Of a stretch of 64,000 nucleotides of DNA, positions 2,357 through 61,370 are shown piece by piece. Both the position numbers and the translations under genes were made by a program. The notes beneath the pieces are model-generated. The model saw nothing but the letters and a program-made list of their open reading frames with translations, ran no database searches and was not told where the DNA came from. This stretch comes from a virus. Positions within the stretch are counted from its first letter, which is position 1; the number at the start of each line of letters is the position of its first letter. The stretch is taken from positions 124,001-188,000 of IMG/VR virus record IMGVR_UViG_3300035698_029839, one strand, 5' to 3'.

Positions 2357-2405
2357 GACATAGGTGTGTAAATTTTTATATTTATGTGCCTATGTCATTT
2401 TTTTT
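2357..2405 (+). terminator. Rho-independent terminator after the DUF3892-like gene
   Basis: GACATAGG (2357-2364) pairs with CCTATGTC (2389-2396). The stem can extend inward through four G-U pairs and five A-U pairs. It is followed by ATTTTTTTT. It separates the DUF3892-like gene from topA. Confidence 0.8.
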
Positions 2406-2417
2406 AAAGGGTTATAT

Positions 2418-5400
2418 ATGGCAAAATATTTAGTAATAGTAGAGTCTCCTAAAAAAACAGGGTATATTAAAAAATTTCTTGGTAAGGATTATGAAGTAAC
2501 AGCTTCTGTAGGGCATATTAGGGACTTACCACCTAAAAAAATTGGTGTTAGTATTAAAAAAGATTTTGAACCAACATATGAAATTTATCCTGATAAAAAA
2601 GATATAGTAAAAAATATACAAAAAATGGCTGGTAGATCAGATCTTGTTTATATAGCAACGGACATGGATCGTGAAGGAGAAGGAATAGCTCAACATATAG
2701 CAGATATACTTCCCCAAGGAACAGATTTTAAAAGAATAGTTTATGGTTCGGTTACTAAAAAGGCAGTAGAAGATGCTATAAATAATGCTGGTGAAATAAA
2801 TAAGGATATGGTTAATAGTTATGAGTGTAGGCGTATACTGGATCGTATCGTAGGATGGAAATCTAGTTTCATTGTCTCTCAGGCTACTGGAGGAAGATCA
2901 GCAGGAAGAGTTCAAAGTGCGGCCTTAAGAATACTTGCTGAAAGAGAGAAAGAAATACAAAATTTTATCCCAAAAGAATATTGGCCTATCGAGGTAGAAT
3001 TGGAAAGAGAAAATGGAGAAAGGGTTATTGCCACTATTAAAGTCCCAAAATCCTTAGACATTAAGACTGGGGAAGAAGCTAATAAAATTATCGATGTCCT
3101 TAAAAAAGAAAAATGGGTTGTTTCTAAGTATGAAGCAAAAGAAAAAACAAATAAAGCTTATGCTCCATTCACAACATCCACCTTATATCAATCATCTTCT
3201 TCTATTCTTGGTTGGAGTTCCAAGAAAACAGCATCTGTAGCTCAACAACTATATGAAGAGGGGTTGTGTTTGTCGGGAGATGAAGTTATAACTATGGAGA
3301 ATGGAGCAATTATTCCTATAAAAGATGCTGGTAAATATATTGGTCAAAATGTTAAGGTATTCGGGGGAATAGAAGAAGAAATAAATTTGAAGATTCAAAA
3401 CGCTAAAATTAAAGATTATCAAAAAATTCCTTATGCAGGACATATGTATAATATTAAAACTTTTGATGGACAAGAGATATCTGTTACTCACGATCATAAA
3501 CTGTTAACATATAATAAAAATGGATTTGAATGGAAAAAAGCTTGTCATTTATATAAAAATGATTTTGTCATTTGTGCAAAAAAAATAGAATGTAGCAGGG
3601 GGGATAGGGACATTCATATAATAGATTTTATTTCTCAAATGCCGTCGTCGATAACTGATAAAATTTTGGTAGGCTTTTATCCTAAATATAAAAATAAAAT
3701 ATTAAAAATTATAGAGGATAATAGAGGTTTTATATCATCTCAGTCTACTTATTATAAATATAAAAGAAATCTTAAAATACCGCTTTCTTTTTTTAATCTG
3801 TATTACGATATGGATTTTCTAAAAAAGAGTATAAAATATTTTCAATGGCAAAGTGCTGGCTCTAAAAAAGAATACATGAAAGCAGACAATTTTTCTTATT
3901 TTTTGGGATTATGTCTTGGAGATGGACATATATGCAAAGATAAAGCAATGATTAATTTCCCGAAATGCGTAGCAAAGGAAGGGGAATGGAAAAAGATATT
4001 TAAAGGTATTATTTATGAGCAAAAAATTAATTTGAATAGAAATGAAATTCAGTTTTCAGGTAAAATTTTATATGAATTATGTGCTTATTTCGGTGGGGCT
4101 AAGGGATCTAAAAGTGATAAAATTTATATTCATCCATTTGTTTCGTCTTTGCCTGAAAAATATATATATAATTTTATAGCTGGTTTGTTCGATTCTGACG
4201 GGTGTATTAATCTTTCGAAAAATCGAAAAATTAGCATATCGTATACTAGTATCAGCCAGAAGATGTTGAAACAATTTGTAGTGCTTCTTAGAACACTGGG
4301 ATACTGTAGTAGTTTGCATCGCAGAAAGAATGATAATAAAAATGGAAATATTAAAATTTGGGAAGAATCAATTAAAGATTTTCTTCTAAATATAAAAAAA
4401 TATTTGATAGTCAAGCAGTTTAAAGTTTCAAGTTTGTTAAATTTGATAGATGAAAAATCAGTTGTTTTTACAGGAAAAAGTAGGAACCAGAATTATCCAG
4501 TTATGAATATTATTGAATATGAGAGACAAAAACAAGGTATAACAAAACAAAAGTTATCTCAGCATGTTTTTAAAAATAATAGCGGATATTGGTCTTATAC
4601 AAGAACAAATGATGGTCATACAAGAAGTAGTTTTCCTAGTAAAAAAAATCTTTTAAAAATAAATGAAATACTAAAAATAAAAGATATTGAAAAAATAATT
4701 AACGGAGATGAATATTTTGCGAGAATAAAGGAAATTGATGTTCAGTATTTTGATGGATATGTTTATGACATTTCTACTTCTTCAGAGAACTTTATAGCTA
4801 ATACATTTTATAGTCATAATTGCACATATATTAGAAGCGATTCAACGTTTATTGTCCCTGATTTTGTTGATGGGATAAGATGCTCAATTCCTGCTAAATA
4901 TGGGGATAATTATCTCCCTAATAAATCTAACGTGTTTTCTAATAAGGCATCTGCTCAAGAAGCTCATGAGGCTATCAGAATCACCAATATAGCTGTTGAA
5001 ACTGTTGGGGGTGTTGATACCCAAAAGCTTTATAAAATCGTCTGGAGACGAACTGTGGCTTCTCAGATGGCAAATATGGAGCAGTTTGTGGGGAATGCTG
5101 ACTTTGACTGTAAAAAGTATAAATTTACGGCAAGCGGAAGTAGAGTTATCTTCGATGGCTGGAAAAAAGTATGGACTTACGGCTCATATTCTGACTCAAT
5201 TTTACCTGAATTTGTGGTTGGGGAAGAGTTAAAATTGATAGATGTGAAAACCGAACAAAAATTCACTTCTCCACCTCCGAGATACTCAGAATCATCTCTT
5301 ACAAAAGAATTGGAAAAAAGAGGTATTGGCCGTCCGAGCACCTATGCTTCCGTCCCAAATACTCTATTTTCTAGAGGTTATATAGAAAAACAGAAAAATA

Positions 5401-5978
5401 TTATCCATACAACAGATATGGGAGTTAGAGTATCCGATTTCCTAGTCGATGTCGATTTCTGCTTCGTAGATCTTGATTTCACCAAAAATATGGAGAATGA
5501 TTTAGATTGTGTGGCAAAAGGAGATTGTAATAAATTAGATATTTTAAATTGTTTCTGGAATAGGTTGAAAAGTGATATTACCAATGCAAAAAATAAAAGA
5601 GAAGAAAATAGTAAGACAGATTATAAGTGTCCAGAATGTGGGGCTTATCTTCAAAAGAAACATTCTAAGTATGGTCCGTTTCTGAGTTGCTCAAATAGGG
5701 CTAATAAAACTATTGAATGTCAGTATAAAGCGGATATTAGTTGTGACGGAAAACCGAAGGAGAAAATAAAGGTAGAATTAGAGAAAAGTGATTTTAATTG
5801 TCCTAATTGTGGAAAGCCGCTACTTAAAAAGAAGAGCAAAAAAAACTGGGAGTATTTAGGCTGCGAATCATGGAATAAGGATGATCAGTGCAAAGGTTTC
5901 TATGATAAAGAGAGTGGAGAAAAAATAGTATTTAAAAAGAAAAAATATAAGAAGTGGGGAAAAAAGAAAAAAAAATAA
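2418..5978 (+). CDS. topA: DNA topoisomerase I (type IA) interrupted by an intein
   Basis: Relaxes negatively supercoiled DNA through a covalent 5'-phosphotyrosine. The N-terminal Toprim domain has YLVIVESPKK and the acidic ATDMDREGEG. ECRRILDRIVG and GRSAGRVQSAALR belong to the core. The active-site segment CTYIRSDS places the catalytic Tyr at precursor residue 804 (286 after splicing). Two C-terminal zinc fingers have CPEC..C..C and CPNC..C..C spacing, and the end is Lys-rich. The precursor is 1186 residues; removing the 518-residue intein leaves 668. I start at ATG 2418 (AAAGGG upstream); the earlier in-frame TTG lies inside the terminator. Confidence 0.95.
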   Translation: MAKYLVIVESPKKTGYIKKFLGKDYEVTASVGHIRDLPPKKIGVSIKKDFEPTYEIYPDKKDIVKNIQKMAGRSDLVYIATDMDREGEGIAQHIADILPQGTDFKRIVYGSVTKKAVEDAINNAGEINKDMVNSYECRRILDRIVGWKSSFIVSQATGGRSAGRVQSAALRILAEREKEIQNFIPKEYWPIEVELERENGERVIATIKVPKSLDIKTGEEANKIIDVLKKEKWVVSKYEAKEKTNKAYAPFTTSTLYQSSSSILGWSSKKTASVAQQLYEEGLCLSGDEVITMENGAIIPIKDAGKYIGQNVKVFGGIEEEINLKIQNAKIKDYQKIPYAGHMYNIKTFDGQEISVTHDHKLLTYNKNGFEWKKACHLYKNDFVICAKKIECSRGDRDIHIIDFISQMPSSITDKILVGFYPKYKNKILKIIEDNRGFISSQSTYYKYKRNLKIPLSFFNLYYDMDFLKKSIKYFQWQSAGSKKEYMKADNFSYFLGLCLGDGHICKDKAMINFPKCVAKEGEWKKIFKGIIYEQKINLNRNEIQFSGKILYELCAYFGGAKGSKSDKIYIHPFVSSLPEKYIYNFIAGLFDSDGCINLSKNRKISISYTSISQKMLKQFVVLLRTLGYCSSLHRRKNDNKNGNIKIWEESIKDFLLNIKKYLIVKQFKVSSLLNLIDEKSVVFTGKSRNQNYPVMNIIEYERQKQGITKQKLSQHVFKNNSGYWSYTRTNDGHTRSSFPSKKNLLKINEILKIKDIEKIINGDEYFARIKEIDVQYFDGYVYDISTSSENFIANTFYSHNCTYIRSDSTFIVPDFVDGIRCSIPAKYGDNYLPNKSNVFSNKASAQEAHEAIRITNIAVETVGGVDTQKLYKIVWRRTVASQMANMEQFVGNADFDCKKYKFTASGSRVIFDGWKKVWTYGSYSDSILPEFVVGEELKLIDVKTEQKFTSPPPRYSESSLTKELEKRGIGRPSTYASVPNTLFSRGYIEKQKNIIHTTDMGVRVSDFLVDVDFCFVDLDFTKNMENDLDCVAKGDCNKLDILNCFWNRLKSDITNAKNKREENSKTDYKCPECGAYLQKKHSKYGPFLSCSNRANKTIECQYKADISCDGKPKEKIKVELEKSDFNCPNCGKPLLKKKSKKNWEYLGCESWNKDDQCKGFYDKESGEKIVFKKKKYKKWGKKKKK
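3267..4820 (+). mobile_element. Intein with LAGLIDADG homing endonuclease, inserted in topA
   Basis: Begins with Cys (CLSGDEVITMENG, typical splicing block A) at precursor residue 284 and ends with SHN, followed by extein Cys+1 at residue 802. Block F-like FIANTFYSHN is present. The two DOD endonuclease motifs are FLGLCLGDGH and IAGLFDSDGC, each with an acidic residue, so the nuclease looks intact. The insertion lies two residues before the catalytic Tyr, so the enzyme should be inactive until splicing. The 518 residues are in frame with no stop. Confidence 0.93.
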
Positions 5979-22146: not shown

Positions 22147-24600
22147 GTGGATAAGGATTTAATTTTATCATCTTTAAAAAAAATAAGATCTTTGTTTTCT
22201 TATGTGGTTGATTGTCCAGATAAGTTACTAGGAGATCTTGCGTCTATAATCCCCGCCAGACATATGATATATCCTTGTGATATTATAGATTTGAGAAATT
22301 TTCTTATTAAAGATAGAATTGTTTCCTCTAATCCTATTTTATTGTTTTCTAATCAATTTGCTGAGAAATATTTAAAAGATCACTCTTTATTTTTGGTATT
22401 AGATTCTGAAAAAACAGGGGTAGATAATGATAGGTATGGAGGTTTGCAATTAAATTATTGTGAAGAGCTAGATATTACTAAACTTATTGTGAGGATTATA
22501 GTTAATGAACCTGCTGCTTCTGGATCTTTTAATGAGATAAAAGATATGGTTAAGGAGTTTGGGTTGGAAGTGGAATGTCTAATATCTAATAGTGTGCCAG
22601 GAATTTCTTTTCCAAATAAAAAATTATCATATAGTGTTACTCATAAAAAAGCACAAAGAATAATAGGAAAACATTCTGATCTTCCTCTTTCTCCAAAAGA
22701 AAAAAATATCTTTGAATTTTTAAGAAGAGTTAAAAAAGATAATGGTCTTAATGTCCAAATGAGAGTAGCAGGTGGATGGGTTAGAGATAAACTTCTCGGT
22801 CAAGAAAGTGATGATATAGATATTGCTGTTGATATGCCAGGATATGATTTTGCTAAGATAGTGGCTGCCGATGCTGTTAAAAATAATATAACACATGATC
22901 CTAGAGCTTATAGAGTTAGTCTGGAAAAGTCAGCAGATCCTAATGAGATAGGTATGGCTAATGATGATTTAATGGTAGGTGCTGTTTCTTTATTCGGCCA
23001 AAAAATAGAATTTGTTCCTATGAGAACAGAACATTATCCAGATATTAATAGTCGTCAGCCAACTATTGCTCTTACTAATGACCCAAGAGAAGATGTAAAG
23101 AGAAGAGACCTTACTATTAACTCTATTTATTATAATATTGATACAGGACAAATAGATGATTTTGTAGGCGGGGTAAAAGATTTAGGGTTAGAAGATGGAG
23201 AAATGAATTTAAGAACACCTGATAAAACTAAAAAAACTTATACGGAAGACCCATTAAGATTATTAAGGGCATTACGTTTTCATAGTCGTTATCCTAACAG
23301 TGTATTAGATCCTAAGATTATAGAATCTATGTCTGATCCTAATATCCAAGAAGCATATACAAAAAAAGTTGCTACAGAAAGGGCTGGTCCTGAAATAGTT
23401 AAAATGATGATGGGAGAAAATCCTATCGACTCTATTAAAATTTTATTTGATAGTGGTTTATATAAGAATATTTTTAAAGTTCCTTCGATGGAAGATCTTA
23501 ATGAAGAAGGTATTCATATGGAACAACAAACTCCTTATCACCAATATAATTTAAAAGATCATACTATCGAAGTAGTGAAAAATTTAAATAATATTATGAA
23601 AGATAATGGAGAGAGTGATTACATGAGGGGTCTTATGAATGTTGCTGCTTTATTTCATGATTTTGGAAAAATGAAAAGTGGAGTGCAAAAACCTCATCCT
23701 AAGAATAAAGGGCAAATGCAATATATAGGGCATGAAATAGAATCAACAAAGATGGCTAATGAAATATTAAAATCCATAGGGGTGGGAAAAGATGATAGAG
23801 ATATAGTAAATCAAGTTATTAGTTTGCATATGAGGCCTCATGGTGCTGAGAAATGGGGCCTAAAAGGTAAGGGTAATTTTCTTAGGAAAACAAGAATGCA
23901 TGGTAAGGATGAAGAGCATAAAGATTTATGGAAATATGTTTTGAATTTTAATAAAGCTGATGAGATGTCTTCTCAACCTGATAATTTTGATGAGGCAAAA
24001 TGGCAGAGTAAATATGATAATATTAGAAATTTTGTAGAAAGTCCTACAGGTGTATTTAAAGGAACGGTTTTGAATGGAAAGGATATCATGACTATATTTC
24101 CCGATTTAAATCCATCAACAGGGTATATTAAAGAAGTTCTTAATTTTATTAAAGAGAAACAAGATGAAGGGATAATTAATGTTGCTGCAGATTTAGAAGA
24201 GGCAAAACAGGAAGCATTCAATCAAATTAATATAATAGCTTCATCTATAAGAGATAAATATGGTTATAAGGGAGAGGAAAATAAAATGGGATCTAATTGG
24301 TATAAAAAGGTAAAGACTTCACAAATAGCTCCATTGACTAATAATGTTAAAGATAAAGAAATGGATGCAGAAATAAAAAAAGGTCCTAATGAAGCTCTTC
24401 CAAAATATCATGTGGGTATGAGGGTTAGAGATAGAAGAAAATCTATCTCTCAAGAACAGACTTACGGGAAAGTAGAACAAATAAAAGACAATAAAATAAA
24501 AATAGTTTGGAACTTCGACAATAAAGAAAAAAGACAAGAAGAAATTCTTGACATGGTGGAGAATACAGAAATATTATCTTTAATTGTATCGGAGATATAA
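22147..24600 (+). CDS. Multi-domain CCA-adding-type tRNA nucleotidyltransferase with HD domain
   Basis: 817 residues, GTG start. Residues 1-195 match nothing I know. Residues ~200-420 are a poly(A) polymerase/CCA head: AGGWVRDKLLG, ESDDIDIAVD (Asp near 223 and 225), KRRDLTINS, and EDPLRLLRALRFHSRY. Residues ~450-640 contain an HD domain (FHDFGK, His504-Asp505). The C-terminal ~100 residues begin NWYKKVKTSQ and end in a small beta domain (MRVRDRRKS, KIVWNF). It would add or repair 3' CCA on tRNA-like RNAs; the phage tmRNA at 53330 does not encode CCA. Confidence 0.85.
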   Translation: MDKDLILSSLKKIRSLFSYVVDCPDKLLGDLASIIPARHMIYPCDIIDLRNFLIKDRIVSSNPILLFSNQFAEKYLKDHSLFLVLDSEKTGVDNDRYGGLQLNYCEELDITKLIVRIIVNEPAASGSFNEIKDMVKEFGLEVECLISNSVPGISFPNKKLSYSVTHKKAQRIIGKHSDLPLSPKEKNIFEFLRRVKKDNGLNVQMRVAGGWVRDKLLGQESDDIDIAVDMPGYDFAKIVAADAVKNNITHDPRAYRVSLEKSADPNEIGMANDDLMVGAVSLFGQKIEFVPMRTEHYPDINSRQPTIALTNDPREDVKRRDLTINSIYYNIDTGQIDDFVGGVKDLGLEDGEMNLRTPDKTKKTYTEDPLRLLRALRFHSRYPNSVLDPKIIESMSDPNIQEAYTKKVATERAGPEIVKMMMGENPIDSIKILFDSGLYKNIFKVPSMEDLNEEGIHMEQQTPYHQYNLKDHTIEVVKNLNNIMKDNGESDYMRGLMNVAALFHDFGKMKSGVQKPHPKNKGQMQYIGHEIESTKMANEILKSIGVGKDDRDIVNQVISLHMRPHGAEKWGLKGKGNFLRKTRMHGKDEEHKDLWKYVLNFNKADEMSSQPDNFDEAKWQSKYDNIRNFVESPTGVFKGTVLNGKDIMTIFPDLNPSTGYIKEVLNFIKEKQDEGIINVAADLEEAKQEAFNQINIIASSIRDKYGYKGEENKMGSNWYKKVKTSQIAPLTNNVKDKEMDAEIKKGPNEALPKYHVGMRVRDRRKSISQEQTYGKVEQIKDNKIKIVWNFDNKEKRQEEILDMVENTEILSLIVSEI

Positions 24601-52483: not shown

Positions 52484-52861
52484 ATGATAGATGAAAGATT
52501 TCCACCAGAACCAACTACACACAATCCTATAAGTATGAGGATACTAGGACTTGCAAAAACTCCATCAGCATGGGCCCAAATAGCTAGAAGAGCAGAAAAA
52601 GCAAATAAGTTCGGAGATGCTTATTATTACTGGAATGCAGGGGCAACTGCCTATACAAGAAGTTCAGAAAAAAGAGTAGTATATGAAGGATTTAGAGATA
52701 AATGTCTTGAAGTATGGAGAAAAGATAATAAATCATGCGAAGAAGAACATACTCCTAACTCCTTGACTAAAAAGGCATTAGAAGAAACAGATAAGAATAT
52801 AGACTGCTTATGGGTTGATAGTGTGGAAGAATTATTCGAAGAATTAGAAAAAGATGATTGA
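52484..52861 (+). CDS. Hypothetical helical protein, 125 aa
   Basis: Not recognised. WAQIARRAEKANKFGDAYYYWNAG resembles a TPR-like helix pair. Acidic C-terminus (VEELFEELEKDD). AAAGGAGC upstream. Its last bases carry the -35 of the RNA locus promoter. Confidence 0.65.
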   Translation: MIDERFPPEPTTHNPISMRILGLAKTPSAWAQIARRAEKANKFGDAYYYWNAGATAYTRSSEKRVVYEGFRDKCLEVWRKDNKSCEEEHTPNSLTKKALEETDKNIDCLWVDSVEELFEELEKDD

Positions 52862-52885
52862 CAGAGTATAATTTTTTGGTATAAT
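52858..52885 (+). promoter_or_regulatory. Consensus sigma-70 promoter of the RNA locus
   Basis: TTGACA (52858-52863), 16 bases, TATAAT (52880-52885): a perfect match to both host-type hexamers and without the phage GTGAAA element. It precedes ~800 bases without protein genes that end in the tmRNA. Confidence 0.88.
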
Positions 52886-52894
52886 ACTGTTTGA

Positions 52895-53164
52895 AATATT
52901 AATATGTTAGATGCATGGTGTGAAAATGTTGAGAGGCGACATGCCGAAACCACATGAAAAACTTTGAATCCGTTATTAGCTGAAAGGTGAGGTCAAGAAG
53001 TTTAATAGAAGGTGGGTATAAAAAATTATCCGAGGATATCGAGGGCCTTTGGAAGCCAAACGCGTAGGTAAGCCATAAATCGTAGCAAGTAACGGAGAGT
53101 TATATTTTACTTGACTTTGACTCAATGAGAGATAACAAGCCAATCTTGTCTGATATATTAATGT
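52895..53164 (+). ncRNA. Unidentified structured RNA segment 1
   Basis: About 270 bases with no protein gene and many G/C-containing short helices, unlike the A+T-rich coding DNA around it. A 12-pair end stem joins 52897-52908 to 53151-53162 (ATTAATAT with ATATTAAT plus wobbles). Inner hairpins include GGC/GCC near 53044-53056, TATC/GATA near 53026-53039 and ACAAG/CTTGT near 53135-53149. I could not match it to RNase P, SRP, 6S, group I or group II RNA. A boxA-like site follows immediately. Confidence 0.55.
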
Positions 53165-53181
53165 TATTGTTCTTTAAAAAT
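53165..53181 (+). promoter_or_regulatory. boxA-like antitermination site 1
   Basis: TATTGTTCTTTAAAAAT closely resembles the rRNA boxA (TGCTCTTTAACA) bound by NusB-S10. An identical 17-mer recurs at 53307. Its position right after RNA segment 1 fits a role in antitermination of structured RNA, or a processing repeat. Confidence 0.6.
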
Positions 53182-53183
53182 AT

Positions 53184-53309
53184 AGTAGCAGTGGCGTGGA
53201 AGTCTGACAAAACCGTTTGCCAAAACGTATCTCGGGGATAATATTTGGCGAGTATATATAGGCATATATATCAGTTAAAGAGTTAGTTGCAAACCAAATT
53301 GCCTGCTAT
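53184..53309 (+). ncRNA. Unidentified structured RNA segment 2
   Basis: TAGCAG-GGC (53184-53193, one bulge) pairs with GCCTGCTA (53301-53308), closing ~125 bases. Inner pairs include GCCAAA/TTTGGC and an ATATATA/TATATAT hairpin around GGC. No tRNA T-arm and no match to a known small RNA. It lies between the two boxA-like sites. Confidence 0.5.
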
Positions 53310-53323
53310 TGTTCTTTAAAAAT
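53307..53323 (+). promoter_or_regulatory. boxA-like antitermination site 2
   Basis: Exact repeat of the 17-mer at 53165, here followed by TTAAAAG and then the tmRNA 5' end at 53330. Confidence 0.6.
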
Positions 53324-53329
53324 TTAAAA

Positions 53330-53679
53330 GGGGATAAACTGGTTATCGATTCTTACGGTAGAGAGTTGAATGGCGTGTACGAGATGGTAGTCGGCTCGTT
53401 TAAAAATCTACTAACAATTTATAACTGACACTAGTTATGCAAAAGCTGCTTAAGCTAAATTAAGCTGTTTGTTCCAGATTCCTGTTATGGAAACAAGCAC
53501 GAAAACAGGATGGTTGATTATCTTTTTTCTCAAGAGGATATGATGCGAGATTAATTTGAGATAGAAATGAAGAACCTTGTTAATTAGGGTCGGATTTTTG
53601 AATTTTAAATAATTAACTACGCACGTAGAAGTTTAATTTAAAAGTAAAGAAGACGCGAGTTCGAATCTCGCTATCTCCA
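53330..53679 (+). ncRNA. ssrA: tmRNA (transfer-messenger RNA)
   Basis: 350 bases. The 5' GGGGATA pairs with 3' TATCTCC as acceptor stem, discriminator A at 53679; the T-arm is GCGAG-TTCGAAT-CTCGC (53655-53671). CTGGTTATCGA follows the 5' end, as the tmRNA D-like region. A pseudoknot-like CGAG...CTCG with GTAG...CTAC matches PK1. The tag frame ends at TAA 53451-53453, reading (ITD)TSYAKAA; resumption at GAC 53427 fits the UAACU before it. It rescues stalled ribosomes and tags the product. CCA is not encoded, so it must be added enzymatically. Confidence 0.9.
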
Positions 53680-53702
53680 TTATTTTAAAAAGGAAAGAAA
53701 AA

Positions 53703-53837
53703 ATGAATAAAGATAAAGAAACATTACAACTTGTTGTTAAAGATCCAGCTTTTATAAAATTGCTGAAAGAATCTGTTGAAGAAATAAAGAATGATGATGT
53801 TATTCCTGTAGATAAAAATTATTTTAGAGAGGAATAA
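53703..53837 (+). CDS. Small protein, 44 aa
   Basis: ATG 53703 after AAAGGAAAG, stop TAA 53835-53837 overlapping the next ATG. Reads LLKESVEEIKNDDVIPVDKN in its second half. A damaged second copy of this part lies at 54164. Not recognised. Confidence 0.62.
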   Translation: MNKDKETLQLVVKDPAFIKLLKESVEEIKNDDVIPVDKNYFREE

Positions 53838-54163: not shown

Positions 54164-54238
54164 AAATTTATTAATCTTTTTAAAGAATCTATTAAAGAAA
54201 TAAGGAATGATGATGTTATTTTCGTAGAGGAAAACTAT
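54164..54238 (+). pseudogene. Remnant duplicate of the gene at 53703
   Basis: The frame after TAA 54158-54160 reads LFKESIKEIRNDDVIFVEEN, aligned residue by residue with LLKESVEEIKNDDVIPVDKN of the gene at 53703. The N-terminus and start are missing. A partial tandem duplication around the gene at 53837. Confidence 0.75.
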
Positions 54239-54239
54239 T

Positions 54240-54503
54240 ATGGAAGACAAACCAATAGATAAACCTTTTAGTGAAGAGGATCTACAAAAAGCAAAAAAAC
54301 TTGCTAGAGATTCTCATATCGTTCTTGAAGGAGATCAAAAATCAGGATTCATTGGGACTTGTGCAGAAATGCCCACAGTGATGAACGATGGAGAAACAGA
54401 CGAAGAGTGTATAGAGAAGACAAGAGAATCCATTCAAGTAGCAATAGCTTTTATGCTTGAAGAAGGAATGAAAATACCTAAACCAAATTCACGGAAAAAA
54501 TAA
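54240..54503 (+). CDS. HicB-like antitoxin-type protein
   Basis: 87 residues. FIGTCAEMPTVMNDGETDEECIEKTRESIQ then IPKPN is the HicB fold (strand, Glu-Pro, G-x-T-x-E helix, IP-x-P end). No HicA toxin ORF lies beside it, so it is an orphan; it may neutralise a host HicA. Confidence 0.7.
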   Translation: MEDKPIDKPFSEEDLQKAKKLARDSHIVLEGDQKSGFIGTCAEMPTVMNDGETDEECIEKTRESIQVAIAFMLEEGMKIPKPNSRKK

Positions 54504-60287: not shown

Positions 60288-61370
60288 ATGAAGAAAATAT
60301 TGATATTTTTAGTTTTGCTTATATCGTGTCAATTATCTTACGCAGAGGACATTGAACGGATAATAAAAATATATGTATCTAATATGAAACCGTGTGTTAT
60401 TATTGAAGATACAGAAAATAGTCACGTCCCTCCTATTATTTCTGGTTTTGAAATAGATCTGTGGAATGAGATAGGAAAAGACTTAAAGGCTCAAAGCATA
60501 ATTAAAAGTTGGGAATTTGTTCCTGTAACTTGGTCCGAATTAGAAAAGAATGTAAGGAATGGAAATGCAGATGTAACTTGTTCGGGTCTAACTATTCGTT
60601 CTAAGAGAATGGAGTGGGCTGATTTTTCTATTCCAACTATGAATTCTGGTTTAGGTATAATGATATTAAAAAATCCTGAAAAAAATTCTTTATTGTTTAA
60701 GTTTCAGGTTCTTTATGATGCTCTTGCAATGCCAGTAACATTGTTTGGATTGTTTGTAATAATCTTTTCTAATATTATATGGATGGCAGAAAAGAAGGGA
60801 GATGGAATTGATACTAAATATTTTCCAGGAATTTTTGAAGCAATATATTTTTGTATTGTAACTTGTTCTACGGTAGGATATGGAGATTATACTCCTAGAA
60901 GATGGACGACTAAAATAGTAACGATAGCACTTATATTCTGTGGTATTATTGCTTTTTGTAATTTCACAGCCTTATTATCTGCTGACTACACCACGGAAAA
61001 AATTTCAGGAGAAATTCAATCTCCACAAGATCTTAAAGGCAAAATAGTTTTAACTCAGATAGGAACAACAAGTGTAGATTACGTTAAGGGGCTAGGAGCA
61101 TCTAAGGTTAAGACTGTTGATGATATAGATAGTGCTTGTGATAATCTACTACTTGAGAGAGGTGATGCTGTAGTATTTGATCATCCTGTTCTTCTCAATT
61201 ATGTGAAAGAGAATCCTGATAAAGTGGAGTTGGTAAATGGTCTTTTCGATGAGCAGTATTATGGGTATGTATTCCCTAAGGGAAGTGATTTAAAGAGAGA
61301 TGTGGATATAGCTATTCTTAAACTCTATGAAGATGGGACTTATAGCAGGCTTTATAAAAAGTGGTTTTAA
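60288..61370 (+). CDS. Glutamate-receptor-like ligand-gated potassium channel
   Basis: 360 residues. Signal peptide 1-19; a periplasmic-binding-protein lobe (~25-130, SBP_bac_3 type, with ITSGLTIRSKRMEWADFS-like region); membrane helix ~147-167; pore helix and selectivity filter CSTVGYGDYTP (TVGYGD 195-200); second helix ~209-231; then the second ligand lobe (~243-360). This is the GluR0 arrangement with a potassium filter. Ligand probably an amino acid. AAAAGGAAA upstream. It sits with PspA and YjfI genes, a bacterial membrane-stress context. Confidence 0.9.
   Translation: MKKILIFLVLLISCQLSYAEDIERIIKIYVSNMKPCVIIEDTENSHVPPIISGFEIDLWNEIGKDLKAQSIIKSWEFVPVTWSELEKNVRNGNADVTCSGLTIRSKRMEWADFSIPTMNSGLGIMILKNPEKNSLLFKFQVLYDALAMPVTLFGLFVIIFSNIIWMAEKKGDGIDTKYFPGIFEAIYFCIVTCSTVGYGDYTPRRWTTKIVTIALIFCGIIAFCNFTALLSADYTTEKISGEIQSPQDLKGKIVLTQIGTTSVDYVKGLGASKVKTVDDIDSACDNLLLERGDAVVFDHPVLLNYVKENPDKVELVNGLFDEQYYGYVFPKGSDLKRDVDIAILKLYEDGTYSRLYKKWF

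Follow-up and report, generated by a model that had tools for sequence, protein, structure and literature searches.

A jumbo-phage tmRNA with a lysine in its tag and a conserved structured RNA upstream

Results

Source, gene content and relatives

The window analyzed here is a stretch of 64,000 nucleotides, bases 124,001–188,000 of a 297,710-base virus record (IMGVR_UViG_3300035698_029839) whose virus is a jumbo phage and which also carries a tRNA cluster. Clamp-loader, sliding-clamp and tRNA nucleotidyltransferase proteins are encoded in the window, as are a topoisomerase, an RNA ligase, a methylase and sigma factors. The type I topoisomerase (2364–5978) is split by an intein that carries a LAGLIDADG homing endonuclease. 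A DNA similarity search of phage and plasmid collections gave nothing useful, with no match in the phage collection to the tmRNA region described below, and a terminase search of the phage with phrog_2 produced no match. Matches from a host search by tmRNA pattern were spread over scattered phyla and pointed to no host.

Two relatives serve for comparison, namely a 350,866-base record (G009; 89% identical with the clamp-loader as query) and a 547,943-base record (G096; 72% identical with a profile query). Both carry a tmRNA at the position corresponding to that in the window, and the order methylase, deaminase, small ORF, RNA cluster, sigma factor gene is common to all three phages. The comparison set thus consists of three phages (298–548 kb), all of them metagenomic.

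A predicted GluR0-type ligand-gated channel of 360 amino acids is also present in all three phages (window 60288–61370, plus strand; L235:2786–3865; L236:9556–10632, minus strand), with a solute-binding domain split around a pore that carries the K+ filter motif TVGYG. It is full-length in both relatives (77% and 67% identity) and has two weak partial matches only in the phage collection, and its best PDB sequence match is 2pyy, a bacterial ionotropic glutamate receptor homologue. A glutamate-receptor-like channel conserved among phages may surprise more than the tmRNA.

An apparently intact one-piece tmRNA gene

ARAGORN calls a single tmRNA in the window, at 53330–53679 on the plus strand, with the tag DTSYAKAA* and a coding part at gene positions 98–124. 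The Rfam model RF00023 matches 53330–53682 over its full length (1–374) with 95 bits (gathering score 47; E 9.6e-36), which is far beyond chance. A first-pass annotation made from the letters alone had called a tmRNA here and proposed a tmRNA model scan as the check; the two programs agree on the gene, and the covariance search accepts it. We therefore regard the tmRNA (ssrA) as confirmed to be real, phage-encoded and apparently intact. Its order is that of a normal one-piece gene and not that of permuted two-piece tmRNAs, in which the 3′ part precedes the 5′ part. The tmRNAs of the relatives score 124.7 and 105.6 bits with RF00023. Nevertheless, ARAGORN misses both of these genes, probably owing to a T-loop, UUCGAU, that looks one base short.

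The acceptor stem (GGGGATA/TATCTCC) and the T-stem (GCGAG/CTCGC) are fully paired in the window, as are the PK1, PK2b and PK4b helices. Hence, the acceptor stem, T-arm, PK1-like pseudoknot and tag frame that had been read into these 350 bases all pair or read as claimed. In each of the three phages all seven acceptor pairs and all five T-stem pairs are formed, with compensatory changes at three of the acceptor pairs and changes on both sides, pairing kept, at every T-stem pair. Further compensatory pairs occur in PK1 S1 (one), PK2b (one) and PK4b (two). PK1 S2 pairs in all three phages despite a change on one side, and PK3b is formed in both phages in which it was tested; for the remaining helices of PK2 to PK4 we rely on the RF00023 alignment. 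The alanine identity pair G3.U70 is invariant in the three phages. Judged from these sequences, the compensatory pattern is characteristic of a functional RNA.

A lysine before the terminal Ala-Ala

The tag reading frame, which follows PK1 and was located by ARAGORN and the sequence itself (53427–53453, plus strand), reads GAC ACT AGT TAT GCA AAA GCT GCT TAA, and the other two frames contain stops. Tags of the relatives are GNNYAMAA* (G009) and GNSYAMAA* (G096), so that the frame is conserved with both synonymous and non-synonymous changes while the Ala-Ala end is invariant. Among 61 bacterial tags, drawn as a background from tmRNA loci of two phyla and a few single genomes rather than as a survey, the residue before Ala-Ala is Leu in 39, Met in 20, and Phe and Tyr in one each; Lys occurs in none. 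By this comparison, the Met of the relatives appears ordinary and the Lys unusual, which bears out the earlier observation that Lys stands in place of Leu. The usual hydrophobic residue, which is not shown to be essential, is thus absent here, and the C-terminal Ala-Ala-COO- expected of an ssrA degron is present. The lysine codon was read from one assembled contig; to reach AAA from any Leu codon, or from that for Met, would take at least two substitutions.

Viral contigs were also scanned for YAKAA followed by TAAGC, and at none of the 13 matches did ARAGORN call a tmRNA, although the TAAGC requirement makes the scan narrow and no demonstration that the tag is unique. One match beside a tRNA array had no tmRNA by Rfam either.

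A promoter and a conserved RNA upstream

Upstream of the tmRNA is a sigma-70 promoter (52858–52885, plus strand) that agrees with the consensus at 12 of 12 positions, TTGACA and TATAAT separated by 16 nt, and is the only such site in the region. The same perfect promoter lies 5′ of the RNA cluster in both relatives. About 12 nt past the -10 box begins a conserved structured non-coding RNA (52898–53162, plus strand), here called RNA X, which is recognized by conservation and covariation and is located between promoter and tmRNA in all three phages. Over 199 nt the window and G009 versions are 82% identical. Its closing stem (52898–52910/53150–53162) forms 13 of 13 pairs in each phage, four of them compensatory, and a second helix (P2) contributes one compensatory pair. 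In the window and G096 this stem begins 12–15 nt after the -10 box, so that RNA X starts where transcription is inferred to begin, or close by. Folding energies are moderately better than those of shuffled sequences (z of -1.9, -2.5 and -1.7), and it is therefore conservation and covariation in three sequences that make the case for RNA X. The first-pass annotation was right about the tmRNA at this locus but missed both RNA X and the promoter.

Comparison of the three members with all of Rfam 15 at permissive E-values yielded chance hits only. We rejected RNA X as a coding sequence: its plus strand has no open frame of at least 70 codons, and of the three differences from G009 within its first conserved block, examined by eye, two would change amino acids. 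A 22-nt pattern had no exact match in bacterial genomes, nhmmer detected no copy at the other phage tmRNA loci examined (including L205–L207), and no terminator was found by consensus between RNA X and the tmRNA.

The interval between the two RNAs is bounded by exact copies of the motif TTGTTCTTTAAAAAT, at 53167–53181 and, 6 nt 5′ of the tmRNA, at 53309–53323 (both plus strand). With up to two mismatches the motif has eight matches in the window against 2.4 expected, and these two are the only exact ones. A TTGTTCTTTAAAAA motif of this kind lies directly 5′ of the tmRNA in all three phages. We call it boxA-like for what we take to be a resemblance to the boxA of rRNA antitermination, and the assignment is putative. 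The sequence between the copies (RNA Y, 53182–53308, plus strand) is a spacer or a small RNA that folds little better than shuffled sequences (z -0.94), and a search of G009 did not find it. In G009, an RNA-like stretch (RNA Z, L013:1036–1250; z -2.1) lies between the promoter and RNA X; it is absent from the window's phage and has no Rfam match. Each is present in only one of these two phages, and both were dismissed as shared elements. Just 3′ of the tmRNA, a 78-nt direct repeat (53751–53828 and 54167–54244; 78% identity) is adjoined by a small HicB-like ORF.

Processing enzymes and other phage tmRNAs

The tmRNA gene does not encode its CCA end (CTCCATTA), which a phage CCA-adding enzyme, the tRNA nucleotidyltransferase at 22147–24600 on the plus strand (phrog_2244, E 1.5e-41), could supply. 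Searches of the phage found neither SmpB nor ClpP, suggesting that the system would depend on host factors.

A first pattern scan for relatives of the tmRNA matched cyanophage-like permuted tmRNAs instead, and another candidate, L029, was a chance match. Apparent permuted tmRNAs, with the 3′ part before the 5′ part, occur in the tRNA-rich viral contigs L004–L009 and L011 (for example L006:1060–1420); those of L006, L007 and L011 fall below the Rfam cut-offs of the cyano_tmRNA, beta_tmRNA and permuted models. A possible L006 tag read by eye, NNIVSFRRTAVAV*, resembles cyanobacterial tags and ends in VAV. Three other large-phage tmRNAs (L205, L206 and L207) have varied tags, GNLFTKAVSWVKSLFSRPTVALSV, ANRPMLAAA and ANSIKNKIANFFRGFASQRVAALA, two of which lack the Ala-Ala end.

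Discussion

Phage tmRNAs are an established group, to which this gene belongs; as a variant, it merits follow-up for its lysine tag and the RNA X–tmRNA cassette. Such genes are known in Bacillus phage G, mycobacteriophages Bxz1, Wildcat and others (PMC4131195), and in huge phages (PMC7162821). They had been described to us as known but rare, and the second term is apt only in a relative sense, since 402 of 18,146 surveyed phages (2.3%) carry one (PMC9004378). The gene resembles one-piece bacterial tmRNAs (RF00023) in its full-length match, acceptor and T-arm, pseudoknots and short tag ending in Ala-Ala, but it is phage-encoded, its eight-residue tag starts with Asp, and Lys replaces Leu or Met. 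Like the phages listed above, this one is large and has a tmRNA gene, but no DNA similarity was found in the phage collection, and the cassette, which appears from these sequences to be new here, belongs to the present lineage. Moreover, SmpB is reported for the huge-phage set (PMC7162821), whereas none was found here. The tmRNA-derived RNA of mycobacteriophage DS6A is also phage-encoded but has only the tRNA-like domain (PMC4131195), while our gene has its mRNA-like domain and tag in full.

Beyond the gene, fold, conservation and promoter sequence described above, we infer how the locus may work. Probably it specifies a working tmRNA that is transcribed with RNA X and rescues ribosomes by means of host factors. 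A host-type sigma-70 promoter would give one transcript containing RNA X and then the tmRNA, whose 5′ end would be cut by RNase P, whose CCA would come from the phage enzyme or that of the host, and to which alanine would be attached through G3.U70. Together with host SmpB and EF-Tu, the tmRNA would release ribosomes that stall on broken mRNA in the course of infection and would append (A)DTSYAKAA. The Ala-Ala end should still direct tagged chains to host ClpXP, although perhaps less strongly than a tag with Leu or Met does. RNA X would either stand on its own as a structured RNA or serve as a leader for control or processing of the tmRNA. The full-length RF00023 match and the ARAGORN call, syntenic retention in three phages, compensatory pairs, the conserved tag frame, the consensus promoter in each, the CCA-adding enzyme and the precedent of a phage tmRNA with an early promoter (PMC9004378) count in favor of a working tmRNA; the lack of phage SmpB and ClpP, the ARAGORN misses in the relatives and the single-contig lysine count against it.

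The ssrA gene is a frequent phage integration site. Integration at ssrA is also discussed in PMC9004378, and the gene might be a nonfunctional host tmRNA, captured or in decay, such as imprecise excision at an integration site of this kind could leave. We consider this extremely improbable because of the covariation: the gene is complete, and compensatory changes have accumulated at a syntenic site across phages of 298–548 kb.

A different question is whether the transcript exists above all for RNA X, which would then be a new phage RNA in its own right, with the tmRNA a neighbor transcribed along with it. RNA X is about as conserved as the tmRNA, in two of three phages it begins close to where transcription is inferred to start, P1 has compensatory changes, Rfam holds no match, and the RNA-like stretch inserted before it in G009 suggests a modular place. 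However, RNA X is upstream of a tmRNA in all three cases, and a leader role would fit equally well, as in Methylophilales phage Melnitz, where a glutamine riboswitch controls the tmRNA (PMC9004378). That system likewise pairs an early promoter with an associated structured RNA, although there a permuted, two-piece tmRNA is controlled by a known riboswitch, whereas RNA X has no Rfam family. On balance, independence of RNA X is a serious possibility, if the less probable one.

The first-pass annotation noted that ClpX reads the position of the lysine and suggested that a phage version could outcompete the host tmRNA and change the fate of tagged proteins. The substitution is there; the consequence drawn for ClpX is the weaker part. 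ClpXP recognition depends most on the terminal Ala-Ala, and substitution of the antepenultimate Leu brings a modest rise in KM (PMC7652416), while ADAS, altered at two positions, weakens degradation (PMC8512704). In our estimate, DTSYAKAA would still be a degron, possibly a weaker one, and because Ala-Ala-COO- is kept and the Leu effect is modest (PMC7652416), proteins bearing it are probably still degraded; an altered fate is possible. Selection for such a change, with tagged proteins escaping ClpXP or passing to another protease, so that phage fragments are spared and ribosomes still freed, would be in line with Lys in 0 of 61 bacterial tags, the Met kept by both relatives and the lack of a tmRNA at the YAKAA-TAAGC match of any other viral contig. 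With the main determinant retained and Lys in one phage only, we think it unlikely. Still more doubtful is a combined scheme in which RNA X represents a new class of structured RNA in phages and, working together with the tmRNA or controlling it, forms with it a two-RNA module for ribosome takeover, the lysine tag giving rescued chains a non-host fate.

The working phage tmRNA that we favor offers a natural ssrA degron variant, Lys for Leu or Met, with two relatives as controls, so that the effect of this position on ClpXP is directly testable. The conserved RNA–tmRNA cassette in huge phages is, moreover, a concrete lead on how stalled ribosomes are handled during takeover of the host.
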